A DNA stretch of 64,000 nt from Phycisphaerales bacterium (lineage in GTDB: Bacteria; Planctomycetota; Phycisphaerae; Phycisphaerales; UBA1924). Shown piece by piece: positions 7,111 through 64,000 of the stretch. Below the pieces are notes generated by a model. The model did not search any database. It saw only the letters and a list, made by a program, of their open reading frames with translations, and was not told where the DNA came from. The stretch's first letter is position 1. Each line of letters opens with the position of its first letter. The DNA is taken from NCBI GenBank assembly GCA_905339235.1, contig CAJPFG010000004.1, positions 1 through 64,000 of the forward strand. Direction: 5' to 3'. A program made the translations under genes and the position numbers.

Positions 7111-7169
7111 CGCATCCTGACACCCCGGTCGTGCTATTGCACCGTCGGTCGGCCGGTCTTCAGGCCGAG
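7111..7169. repeat. intergenic repeat A, copy 1
   Basis: 59 bases that match 9785-9843 at 53 positions. Both copies end in a small hairpin (CGGCC stem around GTCTTC, closing with GGCCG). Copy 2 lies just downstream of a dockerin-coding 3' end on the minus strand, so the element may be a terminator region that has been duplicated. Confidence 0.7.
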
Positions 7170-7170
7170 T

Positions 7171-7329
7171 CCTTGCCGGCGCGTGCGATGCTTCGCGCGG
7201 CGGGCGCGGGATCAGGATCGGGGGCCCCTCGGCCGTGAATCACCCGCGCGTTCGCATCACTCCCGCCGCAAAGCCGGCGCGAGCGATGGCACCCCTTGTC
7301 GCCGTTGATCGGCTTCGACTGCTGCCACC
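7171..7329. repeat. intergenic repeat B, copy 1
   Basis: A second dispersed element, similar with insertions and deletions to 8363-8554. Shared blocks include TGCGATGCTTCGCGC near the start, AATCACCCGCGCG in the middle and the end TTGATCGGCTT-GACTGCTGCCACC. The shared blocks are far too long for chance. No open frame is conserved between the copies. Confidence 0.7.
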
Positions 7330-7347
7330 CGCCTCCACGACCAAGCC

Positions 7348-7842
7348 TTACGTTGGCCGCAATCCCGGGGGCGGGGTCTGCCCCGATTCACGCCAAGGGC
7401 CGCGAAACGGAGCGCGGCCTCCCAGCGTGATACCCACAAACCCCACGGGGATCGACACGAAAGTAAGCCACCACGGGGGCACGGTCGCCTTGTTCGCTGC
7501 AAAGAACCCGATCTCGCCGACACGCGGACCGTGATTGCCCCTATCCCTGACGAGCGACGGAAGACTGCCGAAGACGCTGATCGCAAGCACGATGCGTGCG
7601 AACAAAACCACAGGAAGAGGCCCCCGCGCAATGCCGCGACAGACCGCCCCTCCGATGAGTGCGCCTGCGACATTGAGGATGAGCCCCAGCGCGATCCACA
7701 GCGCGGACAGGCGATACGTGCCCGGCTGAAACTCGTACTCAGGCCCCAGCGTGAAGAACGCGGCGAGTGTGCCCGCGTAGGTGAATGCGCCATACGCGAG
7801 AAACCCGGCGACCACCGCCACGATAGGTCTTGCTTTGCCCAT
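7348..7842 (-). CDS. small multi-pass membrane protein
   Basis: Not recognised. 164 residues from the ATG at 7842, with an AAGGA-type ribosome-binding site just before it; the longer frame to 7998 adds an arginine-rich N-terminus that does not look coding. Hydrophobic segments at roughly residues 5-28, 42-68, 72-95 and 122-145 predict four membrane helices, with AGALIGGAVCRGIA between the second and third. The C-terminus runs into repeat B sequence on the other side of its stop. Its upstream region contains three alternating copies of a CACGGCTTG motif. Confidence 0.65.
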   Translation of the reverse strand: MGKARPIVAVVAGFLAYGAFTYAGTLAAFFTLGPEYEFQPGTYRLSALWIALGLILNVAGALIGGAVCRGIARGPLPVVLFARIVLAISVFGSLPSLVRDRGNHGPRVGEIGFFAANKATVPPWWLTFVSIPVGFVGITLGGRAPFRGPWRESGQTPPPGLRPT

Positions 7843-7916
7843 GCGAGTCCTTGTGATCAACCATAGGGGGCAGGCGGCCCGGCTTCGGGAGCGCGGAGCG
7901 GAGCCAAAGTCGGTGC

Positions 7917-7983
7917 CACGGCTTGACGCTTTGGGCAAGCCGTGCCTTTGCGTCCGAACACCAGCGGCGTCCGGCACGGCTTG
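7917..7983. repeat. three alternating inverted motifs in a leader region
   Basis: CACGGCTTG occurs at 7917-7925, inverted as CAAGCCGTGCC at 7936-7946, and upright again as GGCACGGCTTG at 7973-7983. The middle copy can pair with either neighbour (9 or 11 base pairs), giving two mutually exclusive hairpins. It lies 75-140 bases before the start of the minus-strand membrane protein. Confidence 0.6.
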
Positions 7984-8616
7984 GCGCCGAGCCACCAAGC
8001 CTTGGCACCCCTTTCGTCACTTCGAAGCCGGGCCACCCCCCCACCCGCCCAACCGCCGCCCAGGCCCGTTCTGTCCCCTATGCTCGTCTGTCCCTATCTC
8101 TCACCACGGAACTCAATGCCCAATCCCCAAGACGCATCCCGCCCCCTCGCCCGCCCCTCCAAACACACCAACGAAGACCCCAAGCCACCGCATCCGACTT
8201 GGGTTCCACCAGCCAGGCCCCCGCTCCAGAGCGGCATGCTCCAGAACCGCAAGTTCGACCTGCACAAGTCCAAACGCGTCGCCTCCAGTCGCCGCAGGCC
8301 CTGATCCGGCGGAGTGGCTGCGTTCACGGCCGCCCTGGGCTGCGCCATCGCATCGCCGTTGGCCTTGCAACGGCGCATGCGATGCTTCGCGCCGTCGGCT
8401 TCGTGACGAGATCTCCACGCTCACCGCGACCCGCCCGCGGCCAATCCCCAGCCCAGTCTCCGGCCCCTCACGCGGGTCGATCGGCCGGGAATCACCCGCG
8501 CGTCCGCACCGATGGCACCCTTGTCGTCGTTGATCGGCTTTGACTGCTGCCACCTGCCCCGTAAATAGAAAGCCTCGGGATACGCTCCCGGGCTTGAATG
8601 ATCAGATCGAGTCCTC
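7984..8616. other. gene-poor stretch with repeat B copy 2
   Basis: No well-supported gene in about 630 bases. A 62-residue plus-strand frame starting at 8116 (MPNPQDASRPLARP...) has no ribosome-binding site and is proline/arginine-rich; I do not call it. The recognisable content is the second copy of repeat B. Confidence 0.5.
8363..8554. repeat. intergenic repeat B, copy 2
   Basis: Partner of 7171-7329, longer because of an internal insertion. It ends 62 bases beyond the stop of the minus-strand dockerin gene, so both repeat families lie downstream of minus-strand genes. Confidence 0.7.
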
Positions 8617-9549
8617 TCAGCACGGCGCACCGTTCACACGTTGCTCTTCGGTCTCGATGTCGAATCCGTTCTCCGCGCCGTCGCCGTTGAGATCGGCCGA
8701 GCCTTGGCAGAAGTTCGAGTAGTCACCGTTTAGCGCTTGCTCGGTCGCCTCGATGTCGAATCCGTCCAGCGAGCCGTCGCAGTTCACGTCCGGGTCGCAC
8801 GGGGCGATCTCCACCCGGATCGCGTCGTAGAGCGTCGAGATTCGTACGCCGGAGACGTCGAACAGGTCGTAGATGACCACGAAACTCTCGTTACTCGCGC
8901 CGCCCCACGGGATCGTGGTGCTCAGACTCTGCCCCGGGCCCAATGCGACCGGGGACTCGTCGAGGATCGTGGCGGAGTCGTACAGGAACGTATCCACGAG
9001 CAGATCGTCGGCGCCGATCACTCCCGGCGTCGCGTTGACGCGTCGCTGCACCAAGAAGACCTGCGAGAACTGGTTGCTGAACGCCTGTTGCAGACCAGTC
9101 CACGGACCGCCTCCACCCCCGCCGCTCGTAGTCGGCACCCAGCGGTAGCCCGGCACGGGCATCCGCGCGCCCACTTGCGTGCCGTTAAACGTCCAGTAGC
9201 AGCTCGCGCTCGTGTTCGGGTCGTGCGGTGGGGACGTATACAGCAGAACGCCGAACCCCGCCGATCCACCCGGAGGTGTCGAACTTCCGCTGTAGTCGAC
9301 CGTGAAACCCGTGCCGCTGCCGTTGGGGCTCCACGTCCCGTTGTACTGCCCCTGCACCACGCCCCACACCAGCCCCGGGGAGCGGTTCAGGAACTCCATG
9401 TGGAAGTCGTTGACGGTCTGGCCTGTGTTGTTCCAGACCGTCAGACAGCCGAGGTTGCCGGTGATCATCTGCCCCGGCGCGGCCGCTGCAAGAGCCAAAC
9501 TCAGGCACCCGGACACGGCGAACATTGAACGAGCAAATCGAGCATTCAT
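8617..9549 (-). CDS. secreted GC-type dockerin-anchored protein
   Basis: 310 residues. An N-terminal signal peptide (FARSMFAVSGCLSLALAAAAPG) is followed by a beta-rich body with serine/glycine linkers, including a run of glycines near residue 145, and by the C-terminal dockerin module from CDPDVNCDGSLDGFDIEA to NGAPC. The module has two D-x-N-x-D-G calcium-loop-like segments. In Phycisphaerae such modules occur at the ends of exported proteins and are presumed to attach them to a surface partner. That partner is not known to me. The start has AAAGGAG a few bases upstream, within a predicted hairpin. The body shows no enzymatic motif. Confidence 0.85.
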   Translation of the reverse strand: MNARFARSMFAVSGCLSLALAAAAPGQMITGNLGCLTVWNNTGQTVNDFHMEFLNRSPGLVWGVVQGQYNGTWSPNGSGTGFTVDYSGSSTPPGGSAGFGVLLYTSPPHDPNTSASCYWTFNGTQVGARMPVPGYRWVPTTSGGGGGGPWTGLQQAFSNQFSQVFLVQRRVNATPGVIGADDLLVDTFLYDSATILDESPVALGPGQSLSTTIPWGGASNESFVVIYDLFDVSGVRISTLYDAIRVEIAPCDPDVNCDGSLDGFDIEATEQALNGDYSNFCQGSADLNGDGAENGFDIETEEQRVNGAPC

Positions 9550-9552
9550 GGG

Positions 9553-9602
9553 AGTCTCCTTTCAGTCTGGGACCGGGCGTTGCGCCGCGGTCGGAGGAGA
9601 CT
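9553..9602 (-). promoter_or_regulatory. nested hairpin sequestering a ribosome-binding site
   Basis: On the minus strand AGTCTCCT (complement of 9595-9602) can pair perfectly with AGGAGACT (complement of 9553-9560), which overlaps the ribosome-binding site of the dockerin gene. Between them GACCG-C-GGCG-CAA-CGCC-CGGTC forms a further hairpin. The structure would hide the start region unless opened. Confidence 0.5.
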
Positions 9603-9784
9603 TCGGTCCTCGCAGCCGGACCTATCACTTGCGCGATGGATATTTTCGGCACACTTGACGAGCCACGCGTGCGGCCGGATCGTCTCCGGCCGCGTGGCGG
9701 GGAGGGGCGGGGTGGCAATCGTCTGCCGCCGGCGTCGAGGAATGCACCGCTTCATACATCTTCATCGCACGCATGCCGTCGCAC

Positions 9785-9843
9785 CGCACACTGACACCCC
9801 GGCCGTGCCATTGCACCGCCGGTCGGCCTGTCTTCAGGCCGAG
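9785..9843. repeat. intergenic repeat A, copy 2
   Basis: Partner of 7111-7169 (53 of 59 identical). Here the hairpin is CGGCCT-GTCTTC-AGGCCG. On the minus strand it follows the stop of the truncated dockerin frame by about 15 bases, as a terminator would, though without a T-run. Confidence 0.7.
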
Positions 9844-9858
9844 CGCCGATCCGCCACT

Positions 9859-10116
9859 TCAGCACGGCGCCCCATTTACCCGCTGTTCCTCCGTCTCGAT
9901 GTCAAACCCGCTTTCCGAGCCGTCGTCGTTCAGATCCGCCGTGAAGTTCGAGAAGTCTCCGTTCACGGCCTCCTCCGTCGCCTGAATGTCGAACCCGTTG
10001 ATCCCCCCGTCGCAGTTCACATCCGCATCGCAGTACAACACCGGCAGCGGCGTGAACCGCAGCGTGAAGTCCATCAGGTCCAGCAGGTCGTTCGGCCCGT
10101 CCCCGATCCGACCAGA
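9859..10116 (-). pseudogene. orphan GC-type dockerin module, truncated
   Basis: The frame encodes a nearly complete dockerin module (YCDADVNCDGGINGFDIQA ... GFDIETEEQRVNGAPC) preceded by only about 20 residues and then an in-frame TAA at 10117-10119. There is no signal peptide, no body and no ribosome-binding site before the single ATG at 10074. The module has lost the CQ-S/A segment between its halves that the other three copies keep. This is best read as the 3' remnant of a lost secreted-protein gene. A short expressed dockerin peptide cannot be excluded. Confidence 0.65.
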
Positions 10117-10273
10117 TTACCCGGACCGCACCACGCCGCAAGATTGCTTTTTCACGCCCGGAACCCGCCCCATTCCCACCTTGCTTCAGGCGTAGAACGC
10201 GCTTGCATCCCCGCCCCCGCGCGGTACGCTCGTGGCAGTTCGCCGCGCCCGCGGCGGAGTGGGAGGTATTTCC

Positions 10274-11773
10274 ATGCGCACGTACCGGCTCGCCGCGGCG
10301 TTCTCGTTGGCCCTCGTTCCCATCGTGTACTCACAAACCCCCGTGAGTCAGGCCTTCACCTTTCAGGGTGAACTCTCCACCGCCGGCGCTCCCGTTTCGG
10401 GCGTCCATGACTTTCGGTTCGCCCTCTTCGACAGCACCGGCGCCCAGATCGGCTCCACGCTCTGCGCCGACAACACCACGGTCACGGACGGTCGCTTCAC
10501 CGCCCAACTCGACTTCGGAGCCGCATTCACCGGCCTGCAGCGGTTCCTCGAGGTTCGCGTCCGCCCCGATACGGGCCTCGCATGCAGCGACCTTTCGGGA
10601 TTCACCACGCTCTCACCGCGCCACAATCTTACCGCCACGCCATACGCTCTTTACGCACTGTCCGGCGCGCCCGGCCCACAGGGACCAACCGGCCCCCAGG
10701 GTGACCAGGGTCCGCCCGGCCTGCAAGGACCCATCGGCCCCGCAGGCCCGGATGGTCCCGCCGGTCCCGCAGGCCCGGACGGTCCCGCAGGCGCCCAAGG
10801 GCCCCAGGGCGATCCGGGGGACTCGCACTGGCTGCTCGTGGACAGCGATACGTACTTTGACGCCGGGCGCGTCGGTATTGGCGGCAGCCCGTTCTACGAC
10901 ACCCGCCTGGAAGTCAACGCGCGGGGCACTGAGTACGCCGCGAAGATGTGGAACTCGGTCTCCGACGTCGAATTGTGCTCGACGACCTTCGCGCTCAAAG
11001 CCTGGCGAACCGTCGGCCCCCTGGCCCGGCTGGCCGATGCCGACGTCGCCGTGTACGGCCGGTCCGCCGACCTCTCGGGGACCTTCGGCGCCATCGGGCG
11101 CGACACCCGGGCCGTCGAGGGCACGTTTTCGAACGGGAACTTCGGCTCCCTCGCCAGCGCGACGCACGGCGTGTTCGGGTCGGTCGCGAGCGCCACGAAT
11201 GTGCCCGGCCTGTTCGGCGTGCAGGGCTCCTATCCCGCCGCAACCACAAGCGGATACCTCGGCACTACCGACGCGGGCGTCCTGGGACGCATCAGCCTCG
11301 CCAGCGGTGACGGCGTGCGCGGCGAGTCCACCGGCGGGGCCTTCCGTTTCGCCGGTGTCCATGCGGTGGGCGCCGGCGTCTTCGGCCCCGGCATCCCGCT
11401 GGCCGCGGCGCTCCGCATCACCGACGGCGCCATCACCGTCGCCGGCGACAACCGCCCCTCTCGCACCATCGACGTTCCCGGCGGCAACTGGCTGCCCATC
11501 TCCTCGTGCTCGACGGCCTCTCACCTTCACACCATCGGATGGATGATCGACGTGACGGTGCCCAACTCGCTCGTCACTTCCGGGAGCATGATTCAGGCCA
11601 CCGTCGAGACACTGGCCCCGCCTCCGTTGTGCACCTCGTACTACGTGCAAGTGCACTCCAAGGGTTCCGGGACGTTCACCCTCCGGGTCTCTCGCATGGG
11701 CAGCACCGCGCAGGGATGCACCACGCCGGACCCATGCAAGGTGCACTACTTCATTGTCAATCCGGTGGATTGA
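10274..11773 (+). CDS. secreted protein with collagen-like Gly-X-Y segment
   Basis: 499 residues from the ATG at 10274, which has GGAGG at 10262-10266. A signal peptide (residues 1-20) is followed by a beta domain, then about 16 Gly-X-Y triplets near residues 136-185 ([20 protein letters not shown]), and a long C-terminal region with repeated GVFG / GTFG / GVLG units that resembles the trimeric stalk-and-head layout of phage tail-fibre and bacterial collagen-like proteins. Such proteins form trimeric surface fibres. The C-terminal 60 residues contain four or five cysteines that may be disulphide-bonded. No enzyme motif is present. It faces the PEP-CTERM-like gene across a hairpin. Confidence 0.8.
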
Positions 11774-57422: not shown

Positions 57423-58046
57423 ATGGCGAAGCACCGGGAATCGGGGCGTCCCAACCAGCGGCATCGGACGCGCAAGGACCTGCTCTCGGCGGCGGCGCGG
57501 CTGCTGAAGGAGAGGGAGGGCACGCCGAGCATGGACGATGTGGCCGCGGCGGCGATGGTTTCTCGGGCGACGGCGTACCGGTACTTTCCGACGATCGAAT
57601 CGCTGCTGGTAGAGGCTCCGCTCGACGGGGCGGTGCCGGGACCGGAGGACGTATTCGCGGACGACGCGACGCAGGACCCCGCGGCGCGCGTGGACAGGGC
57701 CGAGGCGGCGCTGCACGACATGTGCTATCGCAACGCCGCGCAGTTGCGGGTGATGCTCGCGGCATCGCTGGAGCGCGCGGCGGGCGGCGCCGCGGAAGGG
57801 GTTCCTGTGCGGCAGAATCGGCGTACATCGCTGATCAAGGCGGCGCTGGAGCCGGCCCGGGCACGATTCAGCGACGGCGCGTACGAGAAACTGTGCGCGG
57901 CGCTGGCGCTGGTTTTCGGTACCGAGTCCATGATCGTGTGCACGGACGTGCTGGGTGTGGACTCGAAGCACGCGAGAAAGGTCAAGAGTTGGGCGGTCCG
58001 GACGTTGGTGCAGGCCGCGCTGGAGGATTCGCGGGCGCGGCGTTGA
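57423..58046 (+). CDS. TetR/AcrR-type regulator
   Basis: 207 residues. Helix-turn-helix RKDLLSAAARLLKEREGTPSMDDVAAAAMVSRATAYRYFPTIESL (seen as MVSRATAYRYFP), then a C-terminal ligand domain with an arginine/alanine-rich helix set. It starts two bases after the NTF2-fold gene. Ligand unknown. The next gene is convergent, eight bases away. Confidence 0.87.
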   Translation: MAKHRESGRPNQRHRTRKDLLSAAARLLKEREGTPSMDDVAAAAMVSRATAYRYFPTIESLLVEAPLDGAVPGPEDVFADDATQDPAARVDRAEAALHDMCYRNAAQLRVMLAASLERAAGGAAEGVPVRQNRRTSLIKAALEPARARFSDGAYEKLCAALALVFGTESMIVCTDVLGVDSKHARKVKSWAVRTLVQAALEDSRARR

Positions 58047-58053
58047 GTCTGGG

Positions 58054-58401
58054 TTACTCCTCGAGGAACGACTTCAGGCGCGCGAGGGCGTGGTCCCATT
58101 GGCGGGAGATGTCGTCCAGGGCGCGGCGTGCTGCTTCGAGCGGCGCGGGATCGAGTTCGAAGAGGGTCTCCCGCCCGTGCCGCACGCCGCGGACCATCCC
58201 CGCGTTCTCAAGCACACGAAGGTGCTTGGTGATGGCCTGGCGGGTGAGAGAGGAGCCCTTGGTGAGGCGGGCGATGGATTGCGGCGCGCCCTGGCCCAGA
58301 GTGGTCAGCAGCGAAAGCCGCGTCCGGTCGCCGAGGGCGGCGAAGACGGGCGCGGTGTGCTGCGGCGTCCGGAGTGATGTCCTATGGCGTCGTCGTGGCA
58401 T
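58054..58401 (-). CDS. ArsR-type regulator paired with SRPBCC gene
   Basis: 115 residues. Winged helix VFAALGDRTRLSLLTTLGQGAPQSIARLTKGSSLTRQAITKHLRVLENAGMV with the closing wing GRETLFELDPAPLEAARRAL. There is no cysteine metal site, so it belongs to the SdpR-like branch that responds to other signals. It overlaps the end of the SRPBCC gene by 20 bases and is translated from the same transcript. A likely operator lies before that gene. Confidence 0.87.
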   Translation of the reverse strand: MPRRRHRTSLRTPQHTAPVFAALGDRTRLSLLTTLGQGAPQSIARLTKGSSLTRQAITKHLRVLENAGMVRGVRHGRETLFELDPAPLEAARRALDDISRQWDHALARLKSFLEE

Positions 58402-58840
58402 GGTTCTGGATATTCCTGACCTGCTCGGTCCAGCCGCCGCTATTCATGCGGAAGGCCTCGTCGCGGCGGTGGGCGGGGATGGCGCTGAATCCCGACTCGG
58501 TCACCGTGAGGAGTGTCCCCAGCGCCGAGGGCTCGAGTCGGAACTCGACCAGCGTGGGCTTTTCGCCCGAGTAGTCGGCTTTCGAGTCCACGGCGTTGGG
58601 ATGCCAGGTGTAGGAGAAGAGTCGCTCCGGCTCCATTCTCTGAACAACGACCTCCATGACCAGGTGCTCGTACCCCGGGTACGTGATTCGCCCGCGCGTG
58701 GTCTTTCCTGGAGCGAAGGGCGACTCGAGGCTCACGCGGAACCACGTGCCGAACTCCCTGTGGTCGGTGAGGGCGCGCCAGACGCGGGCCGGCGGGGCTT
58801 TGATGTCGATGCTCTTCACGATGGAATCGGGCGTGTTCAT
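58382..58840 (-). CDS. SRPBCC/AHA1-like protein
   Basis: 152 residues from the ATG at 58840 with AGGAGG seven bases upstream. START-like fold: SIDIKAPPARVWRALTDHREFGTWFRVSLE, then a long beta sheet and closing helix NSGGWTEQVRNIQNHA. Family members bind hydrophobic ligands and, in bacteria, are often co-transcribed with an ArsR repressor, as here. Function unknown. The ribosome-binding site lies inside the operator-like repeat. Confidence 0.85.
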   Translation of the reverse strand: MNTPDSIVKSIDIKAPPARVWRALTDHREFGTWFRVSLESPFAPGKTTRGRITYPGYEHLVMEVVVQRMEPERLFSYTWHPNAVDSKADYSGEKPTLVEFRLEPSALGTLLTVTESGFSAIPAHRRDEAFRMNSGGWTEQVRNIQNHATTTP

Positions 58841-58841
58841 G

Positions 58842-58859
58842 TGCAACCTCCTGGTTGCA
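58842..58859 (-). promoter_or_regulatory. ArsR-type operator overlapping the ribosome-binding site
   Basis: TGCAACC-AGGA-GGTTGCA, seven-base arms, reading toward the SRPBCC start. The AGGAGG site spans the loop and the right arm. A TAATAT -10-like box ends on the repeat. In ArsR/SRPBCC pairs such TGCAACC repeats commonly serve as the repressor's binding site. Confidence 0.65.
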
Positions 58860-58945
58860 TATTAGGCTCGTCTCAGGCTCGTCGCTCCCGCCCGGCAGGC
58901 CCGACGCCGGGAGCCCCGCCCCCCGTTCGCGTCGCCGACGCATGG

Positions 58946-59413
58946 TTACGGCGCGTCGGGGTTTTCCGGCTCGACCAGATGCGCCAACTGCAAAAGCGAT
59001 TCCTGCCATCCCAGATAGCACATCTCTGGCGGGATCACGCCCGGGACGCCCTCCTGCACGATGGTGGCGTCGGTCCCGCAGGAAACTCTCCGCAGGGTGA
59101 CCGTGGTCAGCATCTCGCCGGGTAGGTTGGGGTCTTCGAACTTGTCGGTGTACTTGAGCCGTTCGTTCGGAACGAGCTCGACGTAGGTGCCGCCGAAGGC
59201 GTGGCTGTTGCCGGTGGTGAAGTTCTTAAACGACATGCGGTACGAACCGCCGGCGCGAGGGTCGGATTCGTGCACCGTGCCCGTGTACCCGTACGGCGGG
59301 AGCCACTTGGCCATCGCGGCGGGGTCGATGAACGCCCGGTACACCCGTTCGGCGGGCGCACGGAGCACGCGGTGAAGTCGGATTGTGTTTGTCGCGGATG
59401 TGGGAGTTGCCAT
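58946..59413 (-). CDS. SRPBCC-family protein
   Basis: 155 residues. START-like fold with IRLHRVLRAPAERVYRAFIDPAAMAKWLPPYGYTG and GTYVELVPNERLKYTDKFED, ending in the helix LGWQESLLQLAHLVE. Relative of the Hsp90-activator AHA1 C-terminal domain used in bacteria as a ligand-binding module. GGAGA lies a few bases before the ATG. It is separated from the SRPBCC/ArsR pair downstream by about 100 bases and could be a paralogue of it. Confidence 0.87.
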   Translation of the reverse strand: MATPTSATNTIRLHRVLRAPAERVYRAFIDPAAMAKWLPPYGYTGTVHESDPRAGGSYRMSFKNFTTGNSHAFGGTYVELVPNERLKYTDKFEDPNLPGEMLTTVTLRRVSCGTDATIVQEGVPGVIPPEMCYLGWQESLLQLAHLVEPENPDAP

Positions 59414-59493
59414 TGAGTGAATCTCCTATCGAGATTGAGGATGAGACTGGCGAGGACGCCGCGGCCGGCGGCACGTCGCGCGGTGAACAGGTT

Positions 59494-59937
59494 CTACTTG
59501 GCCCCGTCGAGCACACCCACCATCCAGCCCATGCCGAACCGGTCGGTCAGCATGCCGAAGCGGGGCGACCAGAAGGTCTTGTTCAGCGGCATGGTCACCT
59601 TGCCCCCTTCGGACAGCGCGGCGAATGCGCGATCAACCTCAGCCGCGGTCGGCAGGCTCAGCGAAAGCGAGAAGCCGCCGAAGTTGCAGGCTTCGCCGCA
59701 CCCATCGGATGCCATCAGCGTGGTATCGCCGACGCGAAACGAGGAGTGCATGACCTTGTTCTCGAAACCGGGCGCCAGTTGCCCGGAGGGGACGGGCTGA
59801 GGGCTGTCCTTGAACTTCAGGACCATGTCAACCTGCGCGCCGATGGCCTTGCGATAGAAGTCCAGGGCCTCTTCGCAGCGGCCGCCGAAGAACAGGTAAG
59901 ACTGAACGAGAGCCGGGGACGGGGTTCCGGTGGTCAT
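59494..59937 (-). CDS. VOC-fold (PhnB-like) protein
   Basis: 147 residues. The start SYLFFGGRCEEALDFYRKAIGAQVDMVLKF and the end NKTFWSPRFGMLTDRFGMGWMVGVL match PhnB-type glyoxalase-fold proteins (3-demethylubiquinone-9 3-methyltransferase-like label in databases), whose own reaction is unclear. The ATG overlaps the stop of the TetR gene before it (ATGA), so both are made from one transcript. Metal ligands of true glyoxalases are incomplete here. Confidence 0.87.
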   Translation of the reverse strand: MTTGTPSPALVQSYLFFGGRCEEALDFYRKAIGAQVDMVLKFKDSPQPVPSGQLAPGFENKVMHSSFRVGDTTLMASDGCGEACNFGGFSLSLSLPTAAEVDRAFAALSEGGKVTMPLNKTFWSPRFGMLTDRFGMGWMVGVLDGAK

Positions 59938-60563
59938 GAATGCGTTCCTTCCGAGTTTGGGATGGTGAGGAGCATTTCTACGTACCGCCGCAGGTGCCCG
60001 ATGCATTCCGCGGCGACTTTGGGGCCGTGTTTGGCTTTCGCGAGTACAAACGATCCCTGGAGCACCGCTTGGGTGAACAGGGCGAGGCTTTGCGGGTCCC
60101 ATTCGGCGTCGGAGGCGTACTTCTCCTTGGCCAGCGCAATGTCGCGCGCGACCTCGGCCGCGTGCGCGGAGATGTGCCGCTCGCACGCCCGCCGGATGGC
60201 GGGATGCGAGTCGTAGGTCTCCTGGACCATGGTTCCGAGAAGGCAGGTGTATCGCGCTAGATCGCCTTGAAGGATGGCCGCGCGAAAACCGAGATAGCCC
60301 AAGACCCGGTCCCGGGGGTCGGCCGGGGCGTGGTAAGGGGCGGCGCTGAAGAGCGACTCGGCCATCTCGGCGAAGTGATCGGCGGCGGCGAGGGCCAGAT
60401 CCTCCTTGCTTTCGAAGTGGTGGAAGAAACTGCCCTTGGTGAGCCCCGCGGCCTCGCAGATGTCGTCCACCGTGGTCGCGGCGTATCCGTTCTCCCGGAT
60501 CAGCCCCATGGCGGCGTCGAGGATGCGGGTTCGCGAGTCGCGTTGGGCTCTTGGGCGTGACAT
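59934..60563 (-). CDS. TetR/AcrR-type regulator
   Basis: 209 residues. Helix-turn-helix RTRILDAAMGLIRENGYAATTVDDICEAAGLTKGSFFHHFESKED (seen as GLTKGSFFHHFESKED), followed by a ligand domain with CLLGTMVQETYDSHPAIRRAC. First gene of a two-gene unit with the VOC protein. It has a textbook promoter with an inverted repeat in its spacer, so it most likely represses itself. The predicted leader is only about ten bases, with no ribosome-binding site. Confidence 0.88.
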   Translation of the reverse strand: MSRPRAQRDSRTRILDAAMGLIRENGYAATTVDDICEAAGLTKGSFFHHFESKEDLALAAADHFAEMAESLFSAAPYHAPADPRDRVLGYLGFRAAILQGDLARYTCLLGTMVQETYDSHPAIRRACERHISAHAAEVARDIALAKEKYASDAEWDPQSLALFTQAVLQGSFVLAKAKHGPKVAAECIGHLRRYVEMLLTIPNSEGTHS

Positions 60564-60579
60564 ACCAGTCAGTACGGCG

Positions 60580-60608
60580 ACTATACCACATGGTACGCCC
60601 GGTGTCAA
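60580..60608 (-). promoter_or_regulatory. consensus promoter with embedded operator
   Basis: Reading leftwards: TTGACA (60608-60603), a 17-base spacer and TATAGT (60585-60580). The inverted repeat TACCA-TG-TGGTA (60584-60595) lies between the boxes. Predicted start point 60573, ten bases from the tetR ATG. Confidence 0.8.
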
Positions 60609-60758
60609 CTTCTTTCGGCTCCCTGAACGGGCAACCAAGGAGTCGAATCGCGCGAGAGCGACGCTGAACCGGCCGCCGCAACGCGGGCTTGACGACTTAC
60701 TCCATACGCGGCTGCCGGCCAACGAACCGCGATCCGGACGTGAATTCGGGCTCAGGTT

Positions 60759-60964
60759 CGTGGCCGATCTCTCGTAGTCAGCGCCGACTCGGCACGCCAT
60801 GTAGAAGGACGCGAAGAGCATCACGACGAAATGGGGCACCAGGCGCACGGCGATGCGCAGGACAACATCGCGAGGAAGATGCAGAGAGTGAGGTAGCGAT
60901 CCAGGAAAGAAAGCCGGCCGGCCCGGCGTGGCGGGCATGGGGCTATCGGGAGGTATTCGGTCAT
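60759..60964 (-). pseudogene. acr3: remnant of Acr3 arsenite efflux pump
   Basis: Starts at an ATG 15 bases after the arsM stop. The first 34 codons read MTEYLPIAPC ... RLSFLDRYLTLCIFLAML, the N-terminus of Acr3. At 60863 the reading shifts by one base into VLRIAVRLVPHFVVMLFAS and RVGADYERSAT, a segment that in intact Acr3 lies some 200 residues later. Sequence after 60759 no longer matches. So the gene has lost its middle and end. Acr3 is the bile-acid-transporter-fold permease that expels arsenite; without it the operon relies on methylation or on a pump elsewhere. Confidence 0.75.
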
Positions 60965-60979
60965 GCTCAGCCCCGTGAA

Positions 60980-61966
60980 TCAGCCGTCCGCGTCAGCCCG
61001 AGCGCCGTCGGGTTTCCGCGCGGAAATGTCCAGGCTGGTGATGAAGTCGGATGGCCGCGTTCCGGGGGGAAGCGACTCGATGATCCTCCGGTACAGCGGA
61101 TCCTCCCAGCCGGACATGGACTCGATGTATTGCGGCTTGGGTGTGAGCACGATCCCGGACAGCCCCGCGGCCTGCATCTGCGCCCGCGTGTCTTTGACAA
61201 GCGCCGCGCCGGCGATGCAACCGACCAGCGCCTCGACGTCCTGTCGAACCACCTCGGGCAGCGGGCGCAGCAGCGCAAGATCGGATACCGCGACGCGGCC
61301 GCCGGGCCGGAGCACGCGAGCGATCTCGCGCCACACCCGCGGCTTGTCAGGGGATAGGTTGAGCACGCAGTTGGAGATCACCACGTCCACGCTCGAATCG
61401 GGAACTGGTAGATTCTCGATCTCGCCAAGGCGGAACTCGACGTTGTTCAGTCCGGACTGGGCGACGTATGAGGCGATGTTCCGGCGCGCCTTGGTCACCA
61501 TGTCGGGAGTCATGTCCACGCCGATGACCCTGCCCGCCGCGCCGATCTTGGGACCGGCGACGAAGCAATCGAAACCGCCGCCCGCACCGAGGTCGAGCAC
61601 GACTTCGCCCGGCCTGAGAGAAGCGATCGCGGTCGGATTGCCGCACGAGAGGCCCATGTTGGCGCCTTCGGGCATGCCGGAGAGTTCGTTCTGTGAGTAG
61701 CCGATCGCGGCCGCAAGTTGCTCGGGAGAGAATGTCGCCGGCCCGCAGCAGCCTCCGCCCGCGGAGGAGGACGAGCCGCCGCAGCACGTGCTCGTTGGCG
61801 CCGCGCCGGTCGCCGGAGCGGACCAGGAACCGCTCTGCGCGATCTTGGAGTATCCCTCGCGGATCTGTTGGCGGATCGAGTCGGCGGCCGAGTCCGGGGG
61901 GGTGGCGTGGCGGGATGCCTTGGAACCGCCGCAGCAATCGGGGCCAGAGCATGTCTGGGTGGTCAT
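60980..61966 (-). CDS. arsM: arsenite methyltransferase
   Basis: 328 residues. S-adenosylmethionine-dependent methylation of arsenite to methylated and volatile arsenicals in the cytoplasm. The SAM motif VVLDLGAGGGFDCFVAG, GVDMTPDMVTKAR and the arsenite-binding cysteines in LSCGNP, ISNCVLNLSPDK and VGCIAGA match ArsM. The N-terminus holds additional cysteine clusters (CSGPDCCGG, TCCGG, GGGCCG), more than usual, that may bind or relay As(III). Its ATG overlaps the arsC stop (ATGA). The next gene is the broken acr3. Confidence 0.93.
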   Translation of the reverse strand: MTTQTCSGPDCCGGSKASRHATPPDSAADSIRQQIREGYSKIAQSGSWSAPATGAAPTSTCCGGSSSSAGGGCCGPATFSPEQLAAAIGYSQNELSGMPEGANMGLSCGNPTAIASLRPGEVVLDLGAGGGFDCFVAGPKIGAAGRVIGVDMTPDMVTKARRNIASYVAQSGLNNVEFRLGEIENLPVPDSSVDVVISNCVLNLSPDKPRVWREIARVLRPGGRVAVSDLALLRPLPEVVRQDVEALVGCIAGAALVKDTRAQMQAAGLSGIVLTPKPQYIESMSGWEDPLYRRIIESLPPGTRPSDFITSLDISARKPDGARADADG

Positions 61967-62439
61967 GGGATGCTCCTTGAACTTAAGTGATGCAGTGGCT
62001 GCGCGGGGAGAATCGCCCCGGGCAGCGTCTCGATGAACGCACGGATTTCGTCGCGAACGCGCCGGTAGTGCGGCATGGCCTCGTCGTCGCGCCGCGCACC
62101 CCGGGCGAGGCGCGGCGGGTCGTCGAACCCGACGTGAATCACTCGGGCGCCGGGCACGAGGGGGCAGGCTTCACGGGCCGAGTCGCAGACGGTCACGATT
62201 ACGTCGAACTGGGCCGCGATATCGCCAAGGGGCTTGGAGAGGTTCCGGGAGATGTCGATTCCGACTTCCGCCATCGCACGCACCGCCATCGGATTCAGGG
62301 GCACGGGGTACGTGCCGGCGGAGAAGGCCTCGATGGCTTTGGGCAAGAGCGCCCCAGCCCAGGCCTCGGCCATCTGGCTCCTGCACGAGTTTCCCGTGCA
62401 GAGGAACAGGACGCGCAGCGGGCGGTCATCGCTTGCCAC
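61963..62439 (-). CDS. arsC: arsenate reductase, thioredoxin-coupled type
   Basis: 158 residues. P-loop C14-TGNSC-R20 in LFLCTGNSCRSQMAE gives the nucleophilic cysteine, and the pair in VTVCDSAREACP (seven apart) relays the disulphide to thioredoxin. It reduces arsenate to arsenite for methylation or export. A GTG start at 62439 is chosen because AAGGAGG lies six bases upstream; it overlaps the end of arsR by 14 bases. The frame open further upstream runs inside arsR and is not used. Confidence 0.92.
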   Translation of the reverse strand: MASDDRPLRVLFLCTGNSCRSQMAEAWAGALLPKAIEAFSAGTYPVPLNPMAVRAMAEVGIDISRNLSKPLGDIAAQFDVIVTVCDSAREACPLVPGARVIHVGFDDPPRLARGARRDDEAMPHYRRVRDEIRAFIETLPGAILPAQPLHHLSSRSIP

Positions 62440-62821
62440 AGCATCCCTCCTTGCAGGCTTTCGCCTCGGAGGCCGGACAGCACTCTTCAATCGCGTCGGC
62501 GAGTTTGCGGAGAGTTCGGCACAGGTGGGCGTACTGGACGGAGTAGGAGACAACGCGGCCTTGCTTGGTTGCCGCGAGGATGCCCGCGCCCTCAAGGAGC
62601 GCAAGATGGCGGGAGACTACCGAAAAGTCCACCGAGCAGCACTCGGCGACCTCGGTCACCGAGCAGGGGCGGCCGCACTTGACCAGGCAGCCCAGCAGCC
62701 GGGCGCGGGTGGGGTCGCAGAGGGCCTTGAAGAGGTCGGGGTTGAGGAGGTCGTCCACGGGGCGGCAGCAGGCCGCGGCCTGGCGGGGCGACATGGTCCG
62801 TCGTGTGTGTACTTGCGTCAT
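62426..62821 (-). CDS. arsR: ArsR arsenic-responsive repressor
   Basis: 131 residues. Winged helix LFKALCDPTRARLLGCLVKCGRPCSVTEVAECCSVDFSVVSRHLALLEGAG with vicinal cysteines in ECCSVD and further cysteines near the N-terminus (AACC) and C-terminus (CKEGCCGK): good As(III) ligands, as in Acidithiobacillus/Corynebacterium-type ArsR. First gene of the operon. The ATG at 62821 coincides with the predicted start of transcription, which implies a leaderless mRNA; an ATG at 62794 is the alternative. Arsenite binding would release it from the operator and start transcription. Confidence 0.9.
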   Translation of the reverse strand: MTQVHTRRTMSPRQAAACCRPVDDLLNPDLFKALCDPTRARLLGCLVKCGRPCSVTEVAECCSVDFSVVSRHLALLEGAGILAATKQGRVVSYSVQYAHLCRTLRKLADAIEECCPASEAKACKEGCCGKR

Positions 62822-62856
62822 CATGCAAGTATTGCCATACGGCGCCGCCGGGTCAA
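62810..62856 (-). promoter_or_regulatory. ars promoter and operator
   Basis: Reading leftwards: TTGACC (62856-62851), 17 bases, AATACT (62833-62828). The inverted repeat TACTTGC-N8-GCAAGTA (62810-62831) overlaps the -10 box and the start codon. Repression by steric block is inferred. Confidence 0.75.
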
Positions 62857-62924
62857 GCCTCGCCCTGAGATTCAACGCAAATCAACGGTGGCCGGGGGCG
62901 TTACCGGAACTCTGCCGCCGCTCA

Positions 62925-63401
62925 TCAGCCTTGGAGGACGAACTCGGCGACTTCGCAGGCGACGTAGCGGTCCGTCTCCTGTCCCGTGCGATAGCCGGTG
63001 AGACGGAAACCGCAGTTGTGCAGGACCCGGATGGACGCGAGGTTGGCCCGGGCGGCCGTGGCGTGCAGCGGTCGGCGGGGAACCTCCTGCAGGAACAGGC
63101 GGAGCGCCCGAGTCGCGACACCCCTGCCCCAGTGCTCGCGGGCGATCCAGTATCCGACGGCGTCCAGTCCGTCCATGTCGAAGCAGGACACCCCGCCGAT
63201 GATGGACTCGTTCTCAACGATCACGCGCGCGGTGACGGCGGCATCCTTGAAGATCCGATCCCACACGGCCTGAAACGCTTCGAGACTTCGCGGCTTGGTG
63301 CCGGCCATGCGGTTGGCTTCGGGATCGAGTTGATGCAGGTAGAGCGCGGGGATGTCGTCAGGGCGGACCGGGCGCAGGTAAGTTGCGGCGAGTGGCGGCA
63401 T
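62925..63401 (-). CDS. GNAT acetyltransferase, RimJ/RimL-like
   Basis: 158 residues. TYLRPVRPDDIPALYLHQLDPEA at the start, the acetyl-CoA loop REHWGRGVATRALRLFL and the closing strand NLASIRVLHNCGFRLTG, as in ribosomal-protein N-acetyltransferases and related amine acetylases. Substrate unknown. Only loosely linked to the arsenic operon (convergent side), separated by about 20 bases of unassigned sequence from the promoter region. Confidence 0.87.
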   Translation of the reverse strand: MPPLAATYLRPVRPDDIPALYLHQLDPEANRMAGTKPRSLEAFQAVWDRIFKDAAVTARVIVENESIIGGVSCFDMDGLDAVGYWIAREHWGRGVATRALRLFLQEVPRRPLHATAARANLASIRVLHNCGFRLTGYRTGQETDRYVACEVAEFVLQG

Positions 63402-63564
63402 GGGGCGATCCTACCCCACCGCTTGTAGGCTTCCCCGCGGGTGTCGGCCACGCCGGGTTGAGGTGACTCCTTCAAGGGGAATGGAGAATCGCCTACCGCG
63501 GCCCACCAACGGGCAAGCGAGTCGGTAGTCGTCGAATCGATTTCCGGAATGACGCAAACTGGCC

Positions 63565-63592
63565 TTGACATATTCCCGTATCGGCATATATT
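63565..63592 (+). promoter_or_regulatory. consensus promoter of a leaderless regulator gene
   Basis: TTGACA, 16 bases, TATATT. The start point predicted seven bases on is 63599, exactly the A of the ATG. Confidence 0.8.
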
Positions 63593-63598
63593 AACGCC

Positions 63599-63982
63599 AT
63601 GGCACGTTCACCGACCACCGCCGACGCCTTCGCAGCCATCGCCGAGCCGCGGCGCCGCGAGATCCTCGGCATCCTCGCCGGCGGCATCGGCGAGGCGGCG
63701 GAGCGTGACGTCACCTGGATCGTCGAGGAACTCGGCTGGCCCCAGCCGCAGGTTTCCAAGCACTTGGGAGTGCTTCGCAAGGTCGGCCTCGTCAGCGTCG
63801 TGCGGAAAGGCAGGCGCCGAATGTACAGCCTGAACGGCGAGGAACTGCGGCCCGTGTACGAGTGGGTCAAGGCCTACGAGCGCTACTGGGATCACCAACT
63901 CAAACGCATTAAGGACCGCGCGGAGCAGATGGAACGTGAATCAAGTCTCAAGGAACGCTCATCACATTCCGGCCGAACCTGA
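63599..63982 (+). CDS. ArsR-type regulator
   Basis: 127 residues. Winged helix AFAAIAEPRRREILGILAGGIGEAAERDVTWIVEELGWPQPQVSKHLGVLRKVGLV with wing VVRKGRRRMYSLNGEELRPVYEWVKAYERYWDHQL. No metal cysteines: SdpR-like branch. It is the first gene of an operon; the following ATG at 63996 has AAAGGAGG in front, so a second gene, probably SRPBCC, continues beyond the window. Confidence 0.88.
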   Translation: MARSPTTADAFAAIAEPRRREILGILAGGIGEAAERDVTWIVEELGWPQPQVSKHLGVLRKVGLVSVVRKGRRRMYSLNGEELRPVYEWVKAYERYWDHQLKRIKDRAEQMERESSLKERSSHSGRT

Positions 63983-63995
63983 AAGGAGGAACCCC

Positions 63996-64000
63996 ATGTC
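63996..64000 (+). CDS. start of a gene running off the window
   Basis: ATG with an AAAGGAGG site seven bases before it, 13 bases after the regulator stop. Only the first codon and two bases are present, so the product is unknown; an SRPBCC protein would fit the pattern at 58382-58840. Confidence 0.55.

Follow-up and report, generated by a model that had tools for sequence, protein, structure and literature searches.

Operons that pair the arsenite methyltransferase ArsM with only the regulator gene arsR are a known arrangement (PMC6205960). A fuller layout, arsR-arsC-arsM-acr3, occurs in Phycisphaerales (for example in JAHBXL010000011, JADLFW010000040 and JAHBXG010000008), and these operons resemble the locus described here in gene families, in direction and in the placement of acr3, the arsenite pump gene, after arsM; their arsM genes are 69–80% identical to ours, and the start region of acr3 in one of them, L053, is also similar. 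Their layouts are not uniform, as L054 gave no arsC match and L053 has an additional arsC-like gene between arsM and acr3. The principal difference is that acr3 is full length in those operons, whereas in the window (the whole 64,000-nucleotide stretch analysed) all that is left of it is a 5′ piece and an internal piece in different frames. Pump-less arsRM and arsR-arsC-arsM operons have the same intact gene content as the window, but among the surveyed loci without acr3 only the window shows a visible remnant of the pump gene. We consider it about 93% probable that the two blocks are a pseudogene left from the acr3 that once belonged to this operon, lost by deletions, and that a copy on another contig, C17, most likely takes care of efflux. 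The features of the locus, in the order in which the operon would be read, are as follows.

62426–62875, minus strand: arsR, opening gene of the operon, encoding an ArsR/SmtB-family regulator; its start codon within the ORF is uncertain
61963–62604 (longest ORF, start uncertain), minus strand: arsC, thioredoxin-type arsenate reductase, with the reductase domain from about residue 65
60980–61966, minus strand: arsM, arsenite S-adenosylmethionine methyltransferase, full length (NF008823)
60866–60964, minus strand: acr3 remnant block 1, the ATG (60964) and Acr3 N-terminus, 33 codons (tblastn)
60759–60863, minus strand, in a frame other than that of block 1: acr3 remnant block 2, 35 codons matching core codons 248–282 (tblastn)
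60567–60758, minus strand: non-acr3 sequence in place of the acr3 3′ end, with TTGACA-17-TATAGT at 60608–60580 reading into tetR
59937–60566, minus strand: tetR-family regulator (TetR-family matches), the next recognisable gene, with its own predicted promoter

The genes upstream of the remnant form a predicted arsR-arsC-arsM operon in which regulator, reductase and methyltransferase are intact, lie on one strand and keep their conserved cysteines. The regulator scored 60.3 bits against NF033788 (NCBIfam; cut-off 55), and its true start probably lies further in, because a promoter-like site found by promoter scan (62856–62828) falls inside the longest arsR ORF. ArsC matched TIGR02691 over residues 65–193 with 112.6 bits, under the curated equivalog cut-off of 174.3, and its Cys69, 74, 140 and 147 are conserved in 48–49 of 49–50 relatives. 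ArsM scored 305.7 bits against NF008823 (cut-off 263), with Cys108, 200 and 250 conserved in 80/80 relatives. Given these residues, whose catalytic roles we take from general knowledge of the two families, the predicted operon should still be able in principle to reduce arsenate and methylate arsenite. The initial annotation's description of an otherwise intact ars operon is fair, yet a layout without acr3 is common in the group. An Rfam scan over 58000–64000 gave no match.

Both blocks of the remnant align with Acr3, as had been proposed from the initial reading of the sequence. On a shared Acr3 core of 336 positions, on which block coordinates are given here, block 1 (60964–60866, minus strand; translation MTEYLPIAPCPPRRAGRLSFLDRYLTLCIFLAM) aligns with core residues 1–17 of intact Acr3 at 94% identity to the best match (tblastn against a 14-locus set, E = 1.5e-4), and its 33 codons, which follow arsR, arsC and arsM, comprise the start codon and the N-terminal codons. 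The portion preceding the core resembles the intact acr3 of the closest relative, L053, which reads MTADSPAIPCPPCRTGRLSVLDRYLTLWIFAAM there. Block 2 (60863–60759, minus strand; translation VLRIAVRLVPHFVVMLFASFYMACRVGADYERSAT) matches core residues 248–282 at 60–66% identity (tblastn, E down to 1e-9). Core codons 1 and 248, separated in the remnant by 53 bp (2 mod 3), lie out of frame with each other, which bears out the suggested shift into a segment normally far downstream. Approximately 230 codons are absent between the blocks, as are the last ~86 codons of the gene (reckoned on the 384-codon L053 acr3), so that only two stretches, one of 33 codons and one of 35, can be aligned with the TIGR00832 ACR3 family. 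There is no full-length frame scoring above the TIGR00832 cut-off at 60759–60964; instead, collinear segments of the family stand at the expected operon position with the frame disrupted and conserved residues lost, and they cannot encode a pump protein.

Nothing recognisable as Acr3 follows block 2. When the 192-bp tail was compared with acr3 3′ ends it scored 24, against an average of 24.7 for 100 shuffles, indicating chance similarity only; the 3′ end is therefore missing beside the internal deletion noticed at first. The tail carries a promoter-like TTGACA-N17-TATAGT site (60608–60580) that scored 11/12 in the promoter scan. The tetR gene it precedes is outside the ars operon; its best match among 60 related genomes was ~33% identical, and it was absent from all 80 arsM loci searched. 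Because tetR lacks close relatives and is absent from those loci, the 3′ end of acr3 probably gave way to foreign DNA, and the gene group containing tetR may have been acquired and have effected the replacement. This group adjoins the remnant on the minus strand (58054–60566) and comprises tetR, a VOC gene (YjdN-like), two AHSA1-domain genes and an ArsR-like HTH gene. A palindrome read by eye, TACCATGTGGTA, overlaps the near-perfect tetR promoter (window 60608–60565) and could be an operator through which tetR regulates itself.

A 47-codon ORF that begins with ATG close after arsM, together with an open frame of 334 codons (60938–59934) in which block 2 is continuous with the tetR frame, raises the prospect of a remnant that still functions in reduced form, as a 47-residue peptide, a leader, or an N-terminal extension of TetR. 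This is scarcely credible: conserved Acr3 residues have been lost, only the first 33 codons of the short ORF are Acr3, beyond block 2 tetR is preceded by a near-consensus promoter of its own, and such a remnant was found in no other genome. The running of the block 2 frame into that of tetR is apparently chance.

Scanning 84,980 species genomes yielded 80 arsM loci, the majority with a label of Planctomycetota or of a group belonging to it. At L053, L054, L055, L059, L060, L065 and L066, which are among the closest ArsM relatives (80% ArsM identity to the window copy for L053, 75% for L054), arsM is followed by a co-directional, full-length acr3. Since a complete acr3 stands at precisely this position in the nearest ArsM relatives, the remnant is best explained as the leftover of an ancestral operon gene, and the earlier statement that the operon no longer has a pump of its own holds. 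The intact copies used for comparison all come from other genera; among the near sisters, where an intact copy had first been suggested for a check, the same-genus genomes G002 and G003 have arsR-arsC-arsM with no adjacent acr3. Among the 68 arsM loci with room on both sides, acr3 lay after arsM in 20 and before it in 7, with none nearby in 41; an arsM locus without a neighbouring acr3 is the commoner state in the group (41/68). No acr3 remnant was found after arsM in the 41 other acr3-less loci. Selenocysteine codons were suspected from relatives' ArsM matches marked as having one TGA inside, but at 18 relatives' loci no stop lay within the BLAST alignments, and the idea was dropped.

The genome (4.55 Mb, 45 contigs, 93.7% complete) contains exactly one full-length Acr3 by whole-genome search, at C17:160406–161392 (TIGR00832 434 bits, cut-off 282.8). 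It groups in one clade with the operon copies and shares 87% identity with the L053 Acr3; it could have been duplicated, moved or acquired. It lies convergently in a second ars cluster (positions 7142–11479 of locus L023) that also holds arsR, an ArsP_1-family permease with weak matches to the SaoE and SO_0444 efflux proteins, arsF and arsG. ArsB (PF02040) was sought across the genome and not found, so that of the two alternative pumps for which a search had been proposed, acr3 is present elsewhere and arsB was not detected. L053's own genome holds a second, more distant acr3 (L142, G061:C5:65480–66592, 363 bits).

The initial annotation had taken the loss to imply reliance on methylation or another exporter. 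That arsenic removal now depends on methylation alone, or on some other channel, gains some plausibility from the 41 of 68 loci without acr3 beside arsM, from the known ArsM operons with only ArsR, and from several relatives in which no Acr3 was found genome-wide, among them G003 (96% complete). It is nevertheless unlikely here, as the second cluster in this very genome encodes an ArsP_1-family permease as well as a full-length Acr3. Because of the intact C17 acr3 the cell is not forced to rely on methylation, and that half of the earlier conclusion falls; another exporter is the better reading, given the C17 Acr3 and, together with it, the ArsP_1-family permease and ArsF/ArsG. Judged from the genome sequence, the C17 acr3 is the most likely source of arsenite efflux.

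The junction near 60865 is known from one assembly, a draft, and a second acr3 in the same genome could in principle confuse assembly, leaving a full gene collapsed or mis-joined in the genome bin. We regard such an error as very improbable. Both blocks differ from the C17 copy; promoter-bearing sequence and tetR stand in for the 3′ end of acr3; and the remnant is located well within a 153-kb contig. Moreover, of the 52 residues compared, 7 are unmatched in any of 27 intact Acr3s (0 to 4 such residues per intact Acr3 under the same scoring), which looks like genuine decay rather than an assembly slip. Four of the seven replace otherwise invariant W, P, Y and F, substitutions that mis-joining cannot make; the invariance of the block 1 W is partly by construction, as the intact set was gathered with a pattern that demanded this residue, and the other three positions carry no such dependence. 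Where nine close relatives agree at a nucleotide column, the remnant differed at 3, 2 and 2 sites for codon positions 1, 2 and 3, small counts whose spread would be as expected without selection on the protein.

Under the pseudogene reading, the ancestral layout would have been arsR-arsC-arsM-acr3, as retained in the nearest relatives. A single deletion of ~690 bp would have fused the first 33 codons to near-end codons out of frame, and a second loss would have taken the last ~86 codons, possibly as the tetR-VOC-AHSA1 gene group came in. The losses themselves are evident from the comparison; the order of events and their cause are as we would reconstruct them. With the C17 acr3 in place, the operon copy would have become dispensable. 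Decay of an acr3 that has a spare elsewhere in the genome is ordinary, and the remnant, a probably redundant pseudogene, is by itself of little importance. It does caution that a missing arsenite pump should not be deduced from one operon without a genome-wide search.

The surveyed pattern, with acr3 beside arsM, elsewhere, absent, or with a channel instead, bears on whether methylating bacteria retain or export arsenite. One tentative and rather doubtful extension is that arsM operons of this group repeatedly lose acr3, sometimes with an aquaporin-family channel in its stead, and that the window captures a rare visible intermediate; if true, the uncoupling of ArsM from active efflux would be a recurrent evolutionary change. 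Eight arsM loci that lack acr3 alongside encode a major intrinsic protein (aquaporin family) directly after arsM, where acr3 sits in other genomes.

L081:4870–5529 (183 bits), L063:4954–5592, L095, L097, L091, L130, L107 and L026: aquaporin-family gene after arsM (PF00230)

The arsM-linked protein could act as a channel for arsenite or methylarsenicals. The genome studied here has two MIP channels, just ~27–32% identical to the arsM-linked ones.
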